A DNA stretch of 29,228 nt, taken from IMG/VR virus record IMGVR_UViG_3300021247_000548, positions 1 to 29,228 of that record; one strand, written 5' to 3'. A program made the translations under genes and the position numbers. Within the stretch, counting starts at the first letter, position 1. The number at the start of each line of letters is the position of its first letter. The stretch is from a virus. The notes below the pieces were generated by a model. That model was not told the DNA's origin and did no database searches. It saw only the letters and a list, made by a program, of their open reading frames with translations. Shown piece by piece: positions 4,250-21,259 of this stretch.

Positions 4250-4510
4250 ATGATGAGTGAGGATTCTATAATGGAGATACTGAAAAAAGTAAGGGTTGTA
4301 AAGGACCCTTTACGGGATGTTATTGCTGTGACCTTATATTTCCAAGGGGAAAAGGTGGGTAAGATGGAGTATAGAAAGGCTACACTACCATACCAAGGGG
4401 ATATGAAGATACTTACTTTGTATTCACTTACCCCTGAGTTCATGGAGTTGTTCAAGGGTCAGGAGAATCCGATACGTATTTTGGACAACCATGTTAAAGG
4501 GTTTGTTTAA
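4250..4510 (+). CDS. Unknown small protein
   Basis: 86 residues (or 85 from the second ATG at 4253). Begins MMSEDSIMEILKKVRVVKD; the middle looks beta-rich (IAVTLYFQGEKVGKMEYRK). No recognisable domain. Its 3' end overlaps the convergent metallopeptidase gene by 17 bp. Start choice is ambiguous because no ribosome-binding site is visible. Confidence 0.6.
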   Translation: MMSEDSIMEILKKVRVVKDPLRDVIAVTLYFQGEKVGKMEYRKATLPYQGDMKILTLYSLTPEFMELFKGQENPIRILDNHVKGFV

Positions 4511-4880
4511 AAGTTTTCCATACTACACTCTTGTATTTCTTTTCATTTCCCCGAGCTTCCACTTCAAAGGGACAATCCCAATATCCGTTTTTCTTCATGG
4601 ATGATGCGTAGTTACGTTTGATACCTCTTTGTATGTGGTGGGTGTATTCATGGATGATTGTTCTAACGAACATGTCCATTGTCACACATGTTGAGGGGTT
4701 GATGACCAATGATTCAAAATCGTATTGTCCGTATGAGTTTGCTAACCCGTTTCTAATCTTTAGTTTCGGGGATGGTTTGTTTCCATGACCGAGTATCTTT
4801 CTTGTGATACCGATTATGGTTAGCCCCATCTTTCTTAGTTCAGGGGTTGTGTATGTGTTAAGGTTATCTTTTAGTTTCAT
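4494..4880 (-). CDS. HExxH zinc-metallopeptidase-like protein
   Basis: 128 residues. HEYTHHIQ at residues 77-84 is a clear HExxH zinc-binding motif in a hydrophobic helix (FVRTIIHEYTHHIQ). It is followed by CPFEVEARGNE (103-113), whose Glu residues could supply the third ligand, as in small SprT- or gluzincin-like phage peptidases. The preceding LKIRNGLANSYGQYDFESLVI fits the edge strands of such folds. Substrate unknown; processing of virion or host proteins is possible. Second gene of a two-gene minus-strand operon, overlapping its partner by 1 nt (TAATG). The motif is definite; activity is inference. Confidence 0.75.
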   Translation of the reverse strand: MKLKDNLNTYTTPELRKMGLTIIGITRKILGHGNKPSPKLKIRNGLANSYGQYDFESLVINPSTCVTMDMFVRTIIHEYTHHIQRGIKRNYASSMKKNGYWDCPFEVEARGNEKKYKSVVWKTFKQTL

Positions 4881-5302
4881 TAGTCGATGTATTTGAATGT
4901 TATTTTACCCACAAGTTCGTTGTTGAATGCTTGACCTGAGATTTGTGCCATCTTGAAGAACAAGGGGATGTTTGTCTTGCTAATCATTCTTTCCAACTCC
5001 ATTGTTGTTACCTGTTTTCTGTTCTTGAAGAAACGTAATCTGTCCGAGTTGTTCCACCAATTCTTTACGGGGATTCTGTTTTCAGAATATCTTCCGCCCA
5101 CTTTCTTTGCTGTCACTTCGAAGTTGATGACATGAGCGTAAGATTGGGTCTTGTAGTTCCACTGGTCTGTGCTGCTAACCGATACGAAACGAACTGAACA
5201 ATCACCCAATCCTTCGAACATACATGGGATGGTTAACATGTTTGTCTTCTTTAAGAACTTCTTAACAAGGTTGGTTGATTGTTTGTCTGCTGTTAGTTTC
5301 AT
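4880..5302 (-). CDS. Unknown protein upstream of metallopeptidase
   Basis: 140 residues, beginning MKLTADKQSTNLVKKFLKKT. Basic, with an aromatic/Asn patch PVKNWWNNSDRLRFFKNRK. No known domain recognised. Shares one base with the downstream HExxH gene, so the two are probably co-translated and may act together. Driven by a canonical Bacteroidetes promoter (-33 TTG, 19 nt, TATATTTG at 5329-5336), which suggests expression by the host polymerase. Confidence 0.75.
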   Translation of the reverse strand: MKLTADKQSTNLVKKFLKKTNMLTIPCMFEGLGDCSVRFVSVSSTDQWNYKTQSYAHVINFEVTAKKVGGRYSENRIPVKNWWNNSDRLRFFKNRKQVTTMELERMISKTNIPLFFKMAQISGQAFNNELVGKITFKYID

Positions 5303-9149: not shown

Positions 9150-9461
9150 ATGAAAATTATAATTACGGAGTCACAGGATTTGTCATTAAGGAAGTTGAAC
9201 TTCTTAACAGAATATATTGAAAATCTATTACCTGAAAAGTATCCGTGGATTAGAGGTGTTAAGATTGATGTTTCATCTTATAACCATAAAGGTAGAATAT
9301 TACCTCTTTATAATATTATATTTGATGCTGGTGGGTATAGTGTATACTCACACGAAGAGGGTACTGATATTGAAGAAGATATTAGTGCCATGGTTCGTCT
9401 GTTATTCCCTTTAGACAAGGATGGTGAGTTAACCGCTGTGTGGGATATTCAGCATAAATAA
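9150..9461 (+). CDS. Tagged DKD..TAVW family protein
   Basis: 103 residues. MKIIITESQDLSLRKLNFL combines the I-T-E tag with a body ending LLFPLDKDGELTAVWDIQHK, shared with the untagged 6471-6740. The same body with and without the tag argues that the tag is a separable module. Last plus-strand gene before the inserted CRISPR/TnpB module. Confidence 0.78.
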   Translation: MKIIITESQDLSLRKLNFLTEYIENLLPEKYPWIRGVKIDVSSYNHKGRILPLYNIIFDAGGYSVYSHEEGTDIEEDISAMVRLLFPLDKDGELTAVWDIQHK

Positions 9462-9488
9462 AAACATTATATTACACAATGTTTTACA

Positions 9489-9756
9489 GTTGTATATACC
9501 TTTTAAATTGTGATGTCAAACAACAAACTTCTTCCCTGAAAAATGGTCATTACTGTTGTATATACCTTTCAAATTGTGATGTCAAACAACGATTTGAATT
9601 CATGTTTTCCTTGTTGTATATACCTTTCAAATTGTGATGTCAAACAACTTCCACATTAGTGTCCGTGAAATTCAAGAGTTGTATATACCTTTCAAATTGT
9701 GATGTTAAACAACTCATTCCATTTTACAGAAAAATCACCGATAGTTGTATATACCT
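9489..9756 (-). CRISPR. Short CRISPR array beside a TnpB-type nuclease
   Basis: Four 36-nt repeats at 9489-9524, 9555-9590, 9613-9648 and 9678-9713, plus a partial repeat at 9744-9756. Repeats 2 and 3 are identical; 1 and 4 each differ by one base. Plus-strand repeat: starts GTTGTATATACCTTTC, centre AAATTGTGATG, ends TCAAACAAC, with GTTGT/ACAAC inverted ends. Spacers are 30 nt (9525-9554), 22 nt (9591-9612), 29 nt (9649-9677) and 30 nt (9714-9743), all different. On the minus strand, the nuclease strand, repeats end AAAGGTATATACAAC. The partial repeat keeps exactly this guide-proximal end. I therefore prefer minus-strand transcription, although a degenerate distal repeat would also fit the plus strand. 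No cas1, cas2 or other cas gene is in the window. Confidence 0.9.
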
Positions 9757-9872
9757 AAATTAATTTAAGTATTGAAGGTATTTGGTGAGTGGAACATAAT
9801 ATTCCCGTACTAACTACATCCTGTTCATTCAGGATTCACCTTTAGGGTGTACAACCACCCTGACTTAAATTA
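9744..9872 (-). ncRNA. Putative omega-RNA / tracrRNA scaffold fused to the array
   Basis: Strong nested structure between the nuclease stop and the array. An outer 10-bp stem pairs TAATTTAAGT (9761-9770) with ACTTAAATTA (9863-9872). Inside are GGTGA/TCACC (9784-9788, 9836-9840) enclosing ATCCTG/CAGGAT (9818-9835), and AGGGTG/CACCCT (9844-9861). On the minus strand, AAATACCTTCAAT (9783-9771) can pair with the repeat segment TTGAAAGGTAT with one bulge, like an anti-repeat. The RNA would then run through AGGTATATACAAC (9756-9744) into spacer 4. This matches a TnpB omega-RNA, or a tracrRNA-crRNA natural fusion. It could also be only the right-end palindrome of an IS605-type element. Expression is unproven. 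Confidence 0.6.
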
Positions 9873-9922
9873 GCCAATATGTTAAAGAACGTTTTTCTTA
9901 TTATAAATGTAAAGAATTATTT

Positions 9923-11239
9923 TTACATTGTCAAATTATCTTCCAATGATTCTTGTTTTTTCTTCCAAGTTTCAATTTTACCTTTTTTGGATTTTGGTTT
10001 TTCTTTAAACCCTTCTTTCCTTGATATGTTTATAGCTGCATTAATATCTGCATCTTGTACTTTTCCAAACATATTACAATCCACAGTTTGACAAGTGAAC
10101 TTTGAAACATCTTTTTTATCTCTTGCGGTTTCATGAACAACACCACAACAATGACAAGTTTTTGACGTGTCTTTTGCAACTACATACTCAATCTCAATTC
10201 CGAATTCTTTGGCTTTATATTCTATCATTTGTTGTAGTTGATAGTATGGCCAGCTCTTAAAAAAGTATTCATTTGAATCTTTGGTAATGCCTGTCAAATC
10301 TTCCATTCTAATTTTTCCAATAGCATTTTCTACACAATATTTAATAATAAGTCTTGACAACTTATGATTCATTGTCTCAATATAGTTATGTTCAGAATTT
10401 CTGATAGCATCAAGTTTTTTCATTTTAGTGTTTCTTCCATGACCACCTTTAGCATATTTCAGACCTTTTGATAAATCCTTTCTTCTTTTTTGAAATTGCA
10501 TTCTTGTATGTGACATAGACTCCCCGAGGTCAATTTGTGGAACATATTCCCCATCACTTCTTGCAAGTGTTACAGGTCGGTTAATACCCATGTCAATTCC
10601 AAGTACAACATCTTTATTTACCACCTCAAGTTTTTTTGGTTCAAACTTATAAGTTAGATTTAAAAAGATTTTACCATTTTGAATAGTAATGTTTGAGTCA
10701 CAACCTTTGTATTCGCCCGACAATACTCTATCAATGATAGATTTATTATCTGACCTATCTCTACCAAAGTGGAGAATAAACGTCAAATCATTTGTGATTT
10801 TAAAATGATATTTGTTATCTACAAGTGATAGTTTGGAACTTCCAAACATAAAGTAAATTGGCATTTTATCTTTTGTAAAAGAAGGTATGGAAACTTTTCC
10901 TGATATTATATTTCTTTTATTTTCAGTTAAAGTTTTTCCAACAGTATTACTTAATGCCCCTCTTATTGTTGATGGTATGTTTGAAAACTGTTTTGTTGAA
11001 TTATATGCGGTATTTCGCAATGGGTGTCCCAACAACTCTACAAATTTTTGATTTGCTGCTGATGCTGAAAATTGAGGGTTATTTTTTTTGAATTCATCTA
11101 AATTGAAAAAATCCATCAAAACATTTCTGATGATATTATTTCCAATTTCACATGACACTTCAGAGTATCGTTTAAGTAAATTGGTGATAATCTTTTTATC
11201 ACCTTTTGGAGTTAGTTCTATTTTTCTTGTCTTAATCAT
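9923..11239 (-). CDS. tnpB: TnpB-type / miniature type V RuvC nuclease
   Basis: 438 residues, the size of IS200/IS605 TnpB and of the smallest Cas12 (type V-U/V-F) effectors. Visible motifs: RuvC-I GIDMGIN (Asp216), RuvC-II MEDLTG (Glu313), the YKAKEFGIEIEYV...DTSKTC segment, a zinc ribbon with Cys362/Cys365 and Cys383/Cys388, and RuvC-III DADINAA (Asp398). All catalytic residues are present, so it should be an active RNA-guided DNase. The N-terminal WED/REC-like half is divergent. No TnpA transposase is nearby. The opposite orientation to the flanking genes marks it as an insertion. The adjacent array and structured RNA suggest CRISPR-like use rather than, or besides, homing of a transposon. 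Own promoter at 11244-11251. Confidence 0.88.
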   Translation of the reverse strand: MIKTRKIELTPKGDKKIITNLLKRYSEVSCEIGNNIIRNVLMDFFNLDEFKKNNPQFSASAANQKFVELLGHPLRNTAYNSTKQFSNIPSTIRGALSNTVGKTLTENKRNIISGKVSIPSFTKDKMPIYFMFGSSKLSLVDNKYHFKITNDLTFILHFGRDRSDNKSIIDRVLSGEYKGCDSNITIQNGKIFLNLTYKFEPKKLEVVNKDVVLGIDMGINRPVTLARSDGEYVPQIDLGESMSHTRMQFQKRRKDLSKGLKYAKGGHGRNTKMKKLDAIRNSEHNYIETMNHKLSRLIIKYCVENAIGKIRMEDLTGITKDSNEYFFKSWPYYQLQQMIEYKAKEFGIEIEYVVAKDTSKTCHCCGVVHETARDKKDVSKFTCQTVDCNMFGKVQDADINAAINISRKEGFKEKPKSKKGKIETWKKKQESLEDNLTM

Positions 11240-12007: not shown

Positions 12008-12760
12008 ATGGGAAAATTTATTATTACTGAAGATGAAAAAAAACATATAATGAGTTTGTACGAACAATCGGCATTATGGGACTACTCCCCTGCTAAAATG
12101 GCCTATGATGCCGCATCAACATTATGGGACTACTCCCCTGCTAAAATGGCGTATAATACTGTAAAAGATTTAGAGTTTCTTCCTCCGGCTCAAATGGCAT
12201 ACCAAATAGCGACAAAAGTTAAAAAAGAATTTACCTTTGATGATTTAATAAATTTAACATCCGCAATGTTGGATGGAGTACCTGGTGTTGGTAATCTTAT
12301 TTCACTTGGTATTGATTACACTCATGCTATTTCGTATTTTACAAGATGTTATATTTCAAATAACGAAGAAGATAAAGTCCAACACTTTATATCAGGTATT
12401 GTTTTACTTTTAATGGCCAATTTACCTATTGCCGGAAACATGTTAAGTATGTCGTCATCAAATTATCTTAAAAGAATTCTTAAACAAAGTCCTGAACAAA
12501 TTCTTAAATTTTTGGGATTAAAAACTATAAATATTACAAAAGAAAAATGGAAGTATTGTGTGGTGGCATTATTTATGAGGATTTTTAGAGGTGAGTCAAT
12601 TAGTAAATTAACTAATATTAAAGAAACAATAAAACCATTTCTTGATTTACCATTAGGAAAACCATATAAAGATGCTATAAATTATTTTTCAAATACATTA
12701 GATGAAATAATCGGAATAACAGGACAATCTAAACCTGATTATAACGTTCAAATTATTTAA
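12008..12760 (+). CDS. Tagged membrane-interacting protein with 16-residue repeats
   Basis: 250 residues. The N-terminus MGKFIITEDEKKHIMSLYEQ carries I-T-E and L-Y-E. Residues 23-38, 39-54 and 55-70 are three tandem repeats of L(W/E)(D/F)(Y/L)(S/P)PA(K/Q)MAY plus five residues; the first two are almost identical at DNA level (12074-12121, 12122-12169). A Gly-rich hydrophobic stretch follows (MLDGVPGVGNLISLGIDY) and then a long membrane-like segment around residues 130-155 (FISGIVLLLMANLPIAGNML). The VPGVGN pattern resembles pre-toxin or membrane-inserting regions of secreted toxins, but this is only a resemblance. It could be a membrane-active internal virion protein. Confidence 0.75.
   Translation: MGKFIITEDEKKHIMSLYEQSALWDYSPAKMAYDAASTLWDYSPAKMAYNTVKDLEFLPPAQMAYQIATKVKKEFTFDDLINLTSAMLDGVPGVGNLISLGIDYTHAISYFTRCYISNNEEDKVQHFISGIVLLLMANLPIAGNMLSMSSSNYLKRILKQSPEQILKFLGLKTINITKEKWKYCVVALFMRIFRGESISKLTNIKETIKPFLDLPLGKPYKDAINYFSNTLDEIIGITGQSKPDYNVQII
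12074..12217 (+). repeat. 48-bp coding tandem repeat, three units
   Basis: Units 12074-12121 and 12122-12169 share the run GGGACTACTCCCCTGC and surrounding bases; the third unit is diverged. Encodes the LWDYSPAKMAY repeat. Confidence 0.7.
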
Positions 12761-16651: not shown

Positions 16652-17077
16652 TTAGTTTACTGACACAACTTCTAAATCAAAGATAAGTTTCTTCCCCGCC
16701 AATGGATGGTTCATATCCAATACGACAGTACTTTCTTTAATTTCTGTAACCACAACGTTTACAGGCCCAAATTGGTTTTGTCCTTGTAACATATCCCCAG
16801 CTTTAACACCTTCAGGGACTTGAGATAGTGCAACTTCACTCATCAGTTGTGGGTTAATATCTCCGTAAGCATTTTCTGGCTCAATTTCAATTGTTTTCAT
16901 TTCGCCAACGGTCATATCAATTAATCCGTTTTCAAAACCAGGAATTAATTGTCCTTGACCTAATGTTACTGTAAGAGGTTCTCTACCCTCAGCCAAAGAT
17001 GTGTCAAATACCGAACCATCTTCTAATTTACCTGTATAATGAACAGATACATTATCACCGTTTTTAATTTTTGTCAT
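16652..17077 (-). CDS. SlyD-like FKBP peptidyl-prolyl isomerase
   Basis: 141 residues from ATG 17077; a longer frame would need TTG. FKBP core: VSVHYTGKLEDGSVFDTS (residues 10-27) and LGQGQLIPGFENGLIDM. An insert-in-flap chaperone segment follows (about 70-120, NAYGDINPQLM...VPEGVKAGDML), and the strand NHPLAGKKLIFDLEVV (123-138) closes the fold. The order is that of SlyD, without its His-rich metal-binding tail. It catalyses prolyl isomerisation and assists folding in the cytoplasm. A host-like chaperone in a phage suggests help with folding of abundant virion or tail proteins. No tag, so not predicted to be packaged. Confidence 0.9.
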   Translation of the reverse strand: MTKIKNGDNVSVHYTGKLEDGSVFDTSLAEGREPLTVTLGQGQLIPGFENGLIDMTVGEMKTIEIEPENAYGDINPQLMSEVALSQVPEGVKAGDMLQGQNQFGPVNVVVTEIKESTVVLDMNHPLAGKKLIFDLEVVSVN

Positions 17078-17133
17078 ATTCAAGTATATAATTTTTTTTT
17101 CATATAAAAAAGCATAAAAGATAAAATTCTTGG

Positions 17134-18471: not shown

Positions 18472-19296
18472 TTATACGGTTACTTCTTGTTGTAGTAGTT
18501 CGTAAGCTCTTGCTAAACGAGTCATACCAATTCCACCACCGAAACGTGGGAAGAAATCGTGTGACAAGAACTCTTCTAATTCTTTTTCTACTCTTTCTTT
18601 TCCGAATAATTCAAAAAGTTTTTCAGAGTATTTTCCATTTTCTATTGTGTAGAAATTATTTCTCATTTCTTCTACGTTAGAACTTCTTTCTGCCGAACCG
18701 ATTGTTTCTTGTCCGTAAAGGATTACATCCACTTTGTTGAAAATCTTGTTTTCACTCTCTCTCATGTTCCAAAATGGGTTAGTTCTGTATGGGAAGTTTT
18801 GTAATGACACAACAGGTCCTTTCTCTTCCCACATTCTTGTTTCGTGTTCATTCTCTAAAATGGATACTCCACCATATTCTTCACAAACATCATCGTAGTT
18901 AACTTCTACTGCTTTATCAAATCCAAGATAATCTAAAAGTTCTGATTCAAGTTTTAACATTTCTTTCATTCCACCCTTTGATTCAAATTCGAACATTGGG
19001 AAAATCATTTCATGACGACCAGGTATTGGGTCTTTTTCTTGTCTATAAGACGTTGAAATACAATATACACCATTCCATTCAGGATTCTTAAGAAGTTCGT
19101 ATTCTAACCACATTTGACCCGTCTGTGGTAACGGCCATACTTCTCCTTGGTAGTTGAATGTTGTTATTGAGTGTGGATTTTCACACGCGGCCAAGATTGA
19201 TAATCTTGATTGGGTTGGAACTTCTTTAAAACCTTTGTTTTGAAAGAACGTTCTCATTTTTTGAACTAACTCGTTGTAAGTTTCTGTGTTTTTCAT
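18472..19296 (-). CDS. Class II aminoacyl-tRNA-synthetase-like core protein
   Basis: 274 residues. A motif 2-like segment spans residues 84-105 (YRQEKDPIPGRHEMIFPMFEF: Arg85, Glu87, Arg94, His95, Glu103/105). Motif 3 is FGGGIGMTRLARA (252-264, Arg260). Layout is closest to the Asp/Asn/Lys subclass, comparable to proteins annotated amino acid-tRNA ligase-related. No N-terminal anticodon-binding domain is present. It should adenylate an amino acid; the acceptor could be tRNA, a protein (as in EF-P modification) or ammonia (as in AsnA-type asparagine synthesis). A strong hairpin plus T8 lies on its own strand 35 nt upstream. A metabolic or translation-modulating phage gene; exact reaction unknown. 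Confidence 0.82.
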   Translation of the reverse strand: MKNTETYNELVQKMRTFFQNKGFKEVPTQSRLSILAACENPHSITTFNYQGEVWPLPQTGQMWLEYELLKNPEWNGVYCISTSYRQEKDPIPGRHEMIFPMFEFESKGGMKEMLKLESELLDYLGFDKAVEVNYDDVCEEYGGVSILENEHETRMWEEKGPVVSLQNFPYRTNPFWNMRESENKIFNKVDVILYGQETIGSAERSSNVEEMRNNFYTIENGKYSEKLFELFGKERVEKELEEFLSHDFFPRFGGGIGMTRLARAYELLQQEVTV

Positions 19297-19492: not shown

Positions 19493-21259
19493 ATGAGGAA
19501 TTTATTGACTGAAGTTAGTAAGATGAAAAACATGATGGGTTTGGAAGAGGCTGCTAAACCAAAATATAGCCCTGAGGTAAAATCGCTTATTGAATTTTTA
19601 AAAGACAATAAAGTATATAGTGCTCAAATTCAAAAATTCATTAATAAAATTGAAGAATATTCTAAAGAAGGTTTAGTTGATTTTGGTTTACTTACAAGAG
19701 GTATTGGAAAAACTTTAAAATTAAAAGGTAGTAAGGATATTAATATTTTTGAATTCTTTAAACAACTTACTAAATCATTAGAGAAACGAAAAACAAAAAA
19801 AGAAGTTGTTAGTCCTGAAGAAGAACCATCAATTTTAGATAAAGACATTTACAAGAAAGAAATATTTTTCTTACAGGTTGAACTTTTAAAATTACAGGAG
19901 TGGTTAAAACAAACAGGTAAGACTGTTATTATTGTTTTTGAAGGAAGAGACTCAGCGGGTAAAGGTTCAACAATTAAGAAATTTACTGAAAACTTAAATC
20001 CAAGATATTATAAAGTTATTGCTCTTGGTATTCCAACACCTGACGAAAGAAAGAACTGGTGGGATAGATATAGAAATCAAATTGAAAAGGGAAAGATAAA
20101 CTTCTTTGATAGAAGTTGGTATAATAGAGGATTAGTTGAACCTGTTATGGGTTATGGTTCGTCAGAAGAGTACGAAGACTTTATGGATAATGTTCAGGAC
20201 TTTGAAGAATCATTGGTTGTTGATGGAGATTACTTATTCAAACTTTGGTTTTCAATAGATAAAGAAACTCAAGCCAAGAGATTTGATTTCAGACAAAAAT
20301 CACCATTGAAATATTGGAAGTATTCAGAGAATGATGAGAAGATGCAAGATGTGTGGGAGAAGTTCACAGAGTATAAACAAAAACTTTTTGATAAGACATC
20401 TACAGTGAATCATCCGTGGGTTGTTTTGGATTCTAACGATAAAAAGATTTCAGGTCTAAACTCAATTAGATACGTTTTACAGAATATTCCTTACGCAAAT
20501 AAGGATGAGGATGTTTTAAATAAAGACTTTCCTGAAGCGATGACGGTTTTAAGACCAAATATTAATGAACAATCTGTTATTGATAATATTAAAAAAATAA
20601 GTGGTATGCAACCATCAAAACAAGAACCAAATTTAATGGATATATGGTCATCTAAGGCTCCACCAAAAGACCAAATGACATCAAATTCAGGAGGTGTTTT
20701 TGATGACGCGATGAAAATGATGAAAACAAAAACACAAATAAATAAAACAAATAATATAAACAAAGATAATTTAGACGAAGTTATAGGTTGCTCAGGTTAT
20801 GGTCCGTCAACACCTCAATTTAAATTAGCTAAAGTTATGGCACAGAAAGAGGGATGGAATAAAACTGATAATAATGGAAAAGGTTCAAGAAGTTATAGAA
20901 ACAATAATCCAGGTAATTTAGATTATCAGGATGGTTTTAAATCGGTTGATAAAGATGTTACAAAAGAAACTACGTTAGACGGTAAAGTTGGTAGATTTGC
21001 AAAATTTAGTTCACCATGTTTAGGTTCAAAGGCTTTAATAGAACAAAAAATCATTAAATGGTCTAAAGGTGAAATGCCGGATTATGGTCAAGCTCCTAAT
21101 TATAATAAAGGTCAAAAACCAACTCTTAAGCAATTTATGTATACCTACGCACCACCTACTGAAAATGACACCACAAAATATATAAAATTTATTTTACAAA
21201 GTTTAAATAACCCTAAATTTAATGAAAATACCTTAATGAAGGATATTTTAAAAATATAA
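19493..21259 (+). CDS. ppk2: Tagged polyphosphate kinase 2 fused to RNNNPGN virion domain
   Basis: 588 residues. Residues 1-20 (MRNLLTEVSKMKNMMGLEEA) are a tag-like start with L-T-E and L-E-E. About 120-335 is a full PPK2 domain: Walker A GRDSAGKGST (151-160), LNPRYYKVIALGIPTPDE, Walker B-like FFDRSWYNRG (204-213), YWKYSENDEKMQDVWEKF, and VLDSNDKK...LNSIRYVLQNIP. It uses polyphosphate to phosphorylate nucleoside mono- or diphosphates (or the reverse). After a low-complexity linker (360-430), residues 435-575 hold RNNNPGNL (469-476) and TYAPPTENDTTKYI (551-564). These are hallmarks of phage structural/lysozyme-like proteins of the RNNNPGN type. PPK2 proteins normally lack such a domain. Both domains look intact. 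Confidence 0.88.
   Translation: MRNLLTEVSKMKNMMGLEEAAKPKYSPEVKSLIEFLKDNKVYSAQIQKFINKIEEYSKEGLVDFGLLTRGIGKTLKLKGSKDINIFEFFKQLTKSLEKRKTKKEVVSPEEEPSILDKDIYKKEIFFLQVELLKLQEWLKQTGKTVIIVFEGRDSAGKGSTIKKFTENLNPRYYKVIALGIPTPDERKNWWDRYRNQIEKGKINFFDRSWYNRGLVEPVMGYGSSEEYEDFMDNVQDFEESLVVDGDYLFKLWFSIDKETQAKRFDFRQKSPLKYWKYSENDEKMQDVWEKFTEYKQKLFDKTSTVNHPWVVLDSNDKKISGLNSIRYVLQNIPYANKDEDVLNKDFPEAMTVLRPNINEQSVIDNIKKISGMQPSKQEPNLMDIWSSKAPPKDQMTSNSGGVFDDAMKMMKTKTQINKTNNINKDNLDEVIGCSGYGPSTPQFKLAKVMAQKEGWNKTDNNGKGSRSYRNNNPGNLDYQDGFKSVDKDVTKETTLDGKVGRFAKFSSPCLGSKALIEQKIIKWSKGEMPDYGQAPNYNKGQKPTLKQFMYTYAPPTENDTTKYIKFILQSLNNPKFNENTLMKDILKI

Follow-up and report, generated by a model that had tools for sequence, protein, structure and literature searches.

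A phage type V-F locus in which a truncated first repeat joins the tracrRNA to the first spacer, a candidate natural single guide

In the IMG/VR virus record analyzed here (the window, 29,228 bases, G+C content 31%, a genome fragment), a structured RNA next to a nuclease gene runs straight into a piece of CRISPR repeat and a spacer, which raises the question of whether it is a transposon omega-RNA with an array attached or the tracrRNA of a Cas12f with its first spacer joined in cis. The initial annotation, made from the sequence alone, read the scaffold as a TnpB omega-RNA. With a probability of about 0.6, we propose instead a phage type V-F mini locus in which a deletion produced a cis guide for the first spacer, alongside crRNA guides acting in trans. 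The nuclease, scaffold, and array indeed share one strand, the minus strand, in the order of a 438-aa ORF (11239-9923), a short leader, the structured RNA, a 13-nt repeat stub, a 30-nt spacer, and four full repeats, as follows:

9923-11239, minus strand: cas12f gene, 438 aa (profile, PDB sequence, and structure searches; conserved catalytic columns)
9904-9934, minus strand: candidate Bacteroidota-type promoter TTG-N20-TACATTTA, overlapping the 3' end of cas12f (same site in homologues)
9874-9890, minus strand: boxA-like antitermination element GTTCTTTAACATATTGG at the 5' end of the RNA (motif in homologous leaders)
9845-9860, minus strand: tracrRNA stem II with the loop GUUGUA at 9850-9855 (5 of 6 helix pairs covary)
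9784-9840, minus strand: tracrRNA branched core, GGUGA...UCACC closing two inner hairpins (RNAalifold, pair counts)
9771-9783, minus strand: anti-repeat AAAUACCUUCAAU, pairing with UUGAAAGGUAU of the repeat
9757-9770, minus strand: linker ACTTAAATTAATTT from anti-repeat to stub, also the 3' arm of a non-conserved outer stem (sequence, folding alternatives)
9744-9756, minus strand: truncated first repeat, the 13-nt stub AGGTATATACAAC, abutting the tracrRNA (identical to the repeat 3' end)
9714-9743, minus strand: spacer of the fused guide, 30 nt (array analysis; no match in the searches made)
9678-9713, minus strand: CRISPR repeat, 36 nt (array analysis)
9649-9677, minus strand: spacer, 29 nt (array analysis)
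9613-9648, minus strand: CRISPR repeat, 36 nt (array analysis)
9591-9612, minus strand: short spacer, 22 nt (array analysis)
9555-9590, minus strand: CRISPR repeat, 36 nt (array analysis)
9525-9554, minus strand: spacer, 30 nt (array analysis)
9489-9524, minus strand: last CRISPR repeat, with one change (TTTAAAAGG) (array analysis)
9460-9485, minus strand: hairpin AAAACATT...AATGTTTTT directly 3' of the last repeat, a weak candidate terminator (sequence)

The array, four 36-nt repeats and the 13-nt stub with spacers of 22-30 nt, adjoins the effector gene; the stub lies in register at 66 nt, and the other spacings are 66, 58, and 65 nt. The spacer behind the stub directly follows the repeat handle, as the initial annotation described, but it is the first in the direction of transcription and not the fourth, as it had been numbered. 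The A+T content of the hairpin at 9460-9485 is too high for the terminator scan. Spacer searches against annotated phages returned no meaningful E-value, all being near 1 or worse; exact 20-mer matches in IMG/VR were absent for three spacers (the 22-nt spacer was left out), and no self-match was found. No cas1, cas2, or other adaptation gene was recognized among the window ORFs checked, and the rest of the genome could carry such genes.

The nuclease is a Cas12f (type V-F) and not a transposon TnpB by sequence, structure, and phylogeny. We took a type V-F effector to be a protein of 400-700 aa with the RuvC triad and a zinc finger that groups with Cas12f rather than TnpB; type V-F systems cleave PAM-bearing DNA under RNA guidance and are active as a dimer. 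The RuvC residues D216, E313, and D398 and the zinc-finger residues C362/C365/C383/C388 are all present and conserved in the alignment. The best profile matches were Cas12f in PADLOC (3e-94; Cas12u3 also matched) and Cas12f1-like_TNB in Pfam (7e-19; OrfB_IS605 also matched), and by sequence against the PDB the nuclease matched Cas12f 9nzo at 8e-50 and TnpB 8iaz at merely 2e-8. In a Foldseek search of the PDB with the predicted model (mean pLDDT 83), ranks 1-21 were all Cas12f, and the first TnpB followed at rank 22 with a lower TM-score. The maximum-likelihood tree places the window nuclease within a clade of seven phage Cas12f (support 100/98); its sister group (98/97) unites the Cas12f from two Bacillaceae with that from a Bacteroidaceae MAG.

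The tree bears on the transposon origin as well. The phage clade and its sister lie inside a branch (100/99) to which every array-bearing locus in the tree belongs, and the TnpB-like rows fall outside it. Another conceivable origin is an OMEGA element of the TnpB type, its omega-RNA having captured an array or given rise to one, as an evolutionary intermediate between TnpB and Cas12; TranC is a transposon-CRISPR intermediate. This would account for a scaffold with a guide directly behind it, which resembles an omega-RNA, and on the current view the tracrRNA/crRNA pair arose when an omega-RNA was split (PMC10097598). Such an origin is highly improbable here: the protein sits among the array-bearing Cas12f with the TnpBs outside, the nearest solved structures are all Cas12f, neither transposon ends nor tnpA were seen, and in the sister groups the tracrRNA stands apart from a complete first repeat. 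Because the outgroups are built in this way, the fusion seems to have arisen secondarily, by re-fusion, and not to be a TnpB-like state kept from an ancestor. Compared with a TnpB/OMEGA element, which has its effector among the TnpBs, an RNA ending at the transposon end, and no array, the window has a protein that groups with Cas12f, an array, and an RNA that ends in a repeat remnant. An IS right end inserted into the array, which the initial annotation had named as a finding that would overturn its view, was also rejected; no IS feature was seen, and tracrRNA-array units occur with the gene on either side. In the Alicyclobacillus phage MMB025 (L003:2413-2888), a Cas12f carries the annotation "transposase"; repeat arrays lie upstream of its gene, and one of them is annotated as CRISPR.

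What the locus has in common with type V-F is an effector of this kind, an array beside the effector gene, and a tracrRNA with an anti-repeat and a pseudoknot; the usual, non-defining trait of a full first repeat apart from the tracrRNA is replaced by the 13-nt stub. The order of nuclease, tracrRNA, and array on one strand is the standard V-F layout, and most bacterial Cas12f relatives examined have the tracrRNA between cas12f and the array, which is where published searches look for it (PMC10090079). The earlier statement that no described system is arranged in this way therefore stands for the 13-nt cut repeat that joins the tracrRNA to the first spacer, but not for the position of the tracrRNA.

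Searching IMG/VR and GTDB genomes with the window nuclease as a single query protein returned no relatives, and records close to the window were possibly excluded from the searches. Alignments and tracrRNA patterns recovered six distinct homologous phage loci (L005, L049/L054, L055=L058, L057, L062, and L074) on contigs of 37 to 310 kb, L055 and L058 being one region in two contigs. The pattern matches L050, L052, L056, and L059 have no array after them and appear to be due to chance. The tracrRNA and the array share one orientation in each of the six homologous phage loci, and the gene is found on either side of the unit. In L062, a tracrRNA-array unit lies on each side of the one cas12f gene (L062:2537-2967 and 4328-4965); the two units differ in their repeats, and within each the anti-repeat fits the repeat of that same unit.

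The structured RNA at 9757-9873 (minus strand) is, judged from its sequence and that of its homologues, the tracrRNA of Cas12f rather than an omega-RNA of TnpB, as the profiles, structure search, tree, and covariation agree; the tracrRNA/array region had no match in Rfam. The covariance analysis across homologues that had been suggested at the outset was carried out on eight sequences with RNAalifold and pair counts: 13 of the 21 consensus pairs show compensatory change, 97.6% of the cells are paired, and none of 500 shuffles did as well. The structured RNA upstream of the stub is no chance fold because its core is kept with compensatory changes in the homologues. The stem-II loop GUUGUA (9855-9850) is complementary to the repeat 3' end UACAAC and would form a pseudoknot with it. 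When each loop, chosen by eye as the apical loop of stem II, was matched with the repeat end of its own system, the contiguous pairs over 20 Cas12f systems totaled 92; in the permutations, the mean was 54.5 and the highest total 74 (0/20000).

The scaffold had also been credited with an anti-repeat, and this is borne out: seven contiguous pairs to the repeat are found, the position is homologous in the relatives, and two pairs covary, with AUACC : GGUAU in the window altered on both sides to CAACC/GGUUG in L062; in the window sequence taken alone, the duplex is within chance (158/1000 shuffles as good). Long repeat/anti-repeat duplexes and a pseudoknot of 5-7 bp are known in V-F guides (PMC11246509), and the two contacts of the window tracrRNA are the same two. 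In contrast, the 10-bp outer stem described in the initial annotation is not part of this conserved structure. Its arms, 9863-9871 and 9762-9770, are not kept in the relatives, and the stem was rejected as a conserved element on account of its absence from the conserved structure of the homologues; in the predicted fold of the free RNA, it is nearly evenly matched by a stub-linker hairpin (~0.40 versus ~0.51).

The unusual feature is the junction, a 13-nt cut repeat linking the tracrRNA to the first spacer; the rest of the locus is of a known kind. As had been claimed, the scaffold ends in the last 13 nt of the repeat: the stub (9756-9744) is identical to the end of all four full repeats, in register, and has no further copy in the window. 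It retains AGGUAU for anti-repeat pairing and UACAAC for pseudoknot pairing, six pairs each, and only 4 of 20000 shuffled stubs reached both. The anti-repeat lies 14 nt from the stub in the window, compared with ~60 nt from anti-repeat to first repeat in L049 and L057. By its sequence, the stub is thus readable as a complete minimal handle joined in cis, with the spacer 9714-9743 inside a continuous tracr-crRNA sequence that carries both pairing elements, as in a single guide. The earlier proposal that the first guide could be one continuous RNA and the others tracrRNA plus crRNA remains consistent with this arrangement.

The first repeat is full in 22 of the 25 array loci surveyed; in the other three, the window, L074, and L005, its 3' half is what is left, and each of these loci belongs to the phage clade. 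An ordinary V-F locus in which the tracrRNA-proximal repeat merely decayed, leaving a dead first spacer and a functionless stub in phages that, lacking cas1/cas2, cannot renew the leader end, would produce such halves too. The missing adaptation genes among the window ORFs checked fit this explanation, as do the half repeats scattered in the related arrays of L005 and L055 and the degenerate stubs of L074 and L005. However, the window stub is exactly identical over 13 nt and keeps both pairing elements, which decay would be expected to hit as well, and its spacer has a normal length of 30 nt; we therefore regard simple decay as rather unlikely. Between the array and the cas12f start, L005:2055-2420 and L055:7151-7250 contain several 3'-half repeats, of the handle only, with short spacers of ~9-28 nt, which are either decayed units or short guides.

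The layout of L074 matches that of the window, with a degenerate stub and a 28-nt spacer; the stub carries changes in its paired part and may have decayed. Since the window and L074 are the two earliest branches of the phage clade and have the gene-tracr-stub order in common, the fusion is possibly older than the window. A tentative suggestion, somewhat less likely than not, is that a native Cas12f locus makes a built-in single guide for its first spacer together with trans crRNAs, by a natural re-fusion, possibly in two phage lineages (the window and L074).

The main weakness of the fused guide lies in the predicted fold of the free RNA, where the cis pairing of the stub with the anti-repeat (6 bp) reaches just ~0.08 and stands behind the two alternative folds. 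The hairpin of stub and linker (ATACTTAAA/TTTAGGTAT), the most probable local fold, could itself be the purpose of the stub, as a regulatory element that shields the tracrRNA 3' end or blocks an unwanted guide, and leader-repeat hairpins have been reported to suppress extraneous crRNA in type VI (PMC13187072) and II-A systems. We consider this improbable, as the hairpin is not kept in homologues with full first repeats, and in systems with repeat-guide crRNAs, type V included, extraneous crRNA stems from the last repeat and not the first (PMC13187072).

Signals ahead of the tracrRNA suggest how a fused guide could be expressed. The TTG-N20-TACATTTA element is also the top sigma-70-like match of the region, and five homologues have TTG-N19/20-TAnnTTTG at the equivalent position, which we take to be the Bacteroidota promoter type; the window has TTTA. 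Behind it, GTTC(A/T)TT.A is kept in 8/8 homologous leaders. In a Bacteroidaceae MAG, the sole genomic match of GTTCTTTGANNTATTG lies ~10 nt ahead of a four-tRNA operon, and the 16S leader of another Bacteroidaceae genome contains GTTCTTTGA. The leader motif fits the pattern of the boxA antiterminator of untranslated RNAs and may act as one here. Together, the promoter and the boxA-like element support transcription of the tracrRNA and the array as one minus-strand RNA, and with the sister Cas12f they indicate that the host of the virus is probably a member of the Bacteroidota. The Bacillaceae Cas12f loci L015 and L020 have a boxA-like GTTCTTTGA ahead of the tracrRNA, just downstream of cas12f, suggesting that antitermination of tracrRNA-array transcripts is perhaps widespread in V-F.

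The anatomy, the homology, the covariation, and the retained pairing elements are established; transcription, processing, loading, and targets are what we infer from them. In the proposed mechanism, the minus-strand promoter behind cas12f would drive a single non-coding transcript, consisting of the boxA-like leader, the tracrRNA, the 13-nt stub, the first spacer, and the four full repeats separated by the other three spacers. The tracrRNA would pair in trans with each full repeat via the anti-repeat duplex and the pseudoknot between loop and repeat end, and processing, assumed to be by RNase III, would yield ordinary Cas12f guides. The deletion would have removed the tracrRNA tail along with the first repeat's 5' portion, so that the first spacer became continuous with the tracrRNA in cis; the stub would make both contacts within one molecule, like an engineered sgRNA or an omega-RNA. 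Because the anti-repeat:stub pairing is predicted at such a low level in the free RNA, loading of the tracr-stub-spacer unit in cis would need the help of the protein or processing. A given tracrRNA molecule could not serve the stub and a full repeat together, since both need its anti-repeat and its loop. On this reading, Cas12f would work with a built-in single guide as well as crRNA guides, probably against competing mobile elements.

There are likenesses and differences between this arrangement and known systems. With type V-F (Cas12f1: AsCas12f, Al3Cas12f, OsCas12f1, and RhCas12f1), the window shares the effector fold, the catalytic residues, the tracrRNA between gene and array, the anti-repeat duplex with a 5-7 bp pseudoknot (PMC11246509), and a short-repeat array with ~30-nt spacers, but it is phage-borne, has no cas1/cas2 recognized in the window, and retains 13 nt of its tracrRNA-proximal repeat, joined to the tracrRNA. 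Reports of phage-borne V-F systems go back to 2020 (Al-Shayeb 2020, PMC7162821), and the systems of huge phages likewise combine compact arrays with an effector whose catalytic residues are intact; a fused tracr-crRNA, which the window has by sequence, is not described in the portion of that report used here. In the case of tracr-L, the natural single guide of S. pyogenes Cas9, a native single guide also exists beside ordinary crRNAs, but that RNA takes its guide from the 5' region of its own sequence, with the cas promoter as its target (PMC11417352), whereas the candidate in the window would use a normal array spacer 3' of the fused repeat handle. The omega-RNA of TnpB (ISDra2) likewise holds scaffold and guide in one RNA, with a pseudoknot and a short loop joining the tracr-like and crRNA-like parts (PMC10097598); in contrast, the window has a Cas12f with a true array, and its tree suggests re-fusion. 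Engineered Cas12f sgRNAs link a trimmed tracrRNA to the repeat by a tetraloop (PMC13186708), and the stub junction is the same construction.

If the proposal is true, nature would have its own version of the "single guide RNA" that is otherwise made artificially by joining the two parts, and re-fusion would need little, namely 13 nt of repeat with two short pairings. Cas12 guides are thought to arise by the splitting of an omega-RNA, and a native locus with both forms would show the reverse step. The locus would provide a model from nature for designing compact Cas12f single guides, and it offers a simple way to ask whether one permanent guide is favored by a phage over the other guides of its array. 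If the stub is dead, it is one more phage-borne V-F system, of modest interest.

Elsewhere in the window, GTATTTATNNTANTATGAA occurs directly at the start of small paralogous ORFs (8019, 8738, and 11334) and is a possible phage promoter or translation start signal, with seven matches at ≤3 mismatches compared with 2.5 expected. An in-frame 48-nt tandem duplication (12067-12157) lies within the ORF 12008-12760. The ORF 19493-21259 contains a polyphosphate kinase 2 domain (1.6e-70, residues 115-338), and its C-terminal part matches phage endolysin and tail-protein families. A class II tRNA-synthetase-like protein of 274 aa (18472-19296; Pfam 5.6e-13) and an FKBP-type isomerase (16652-17083; 1.2e-22) are also encoded.
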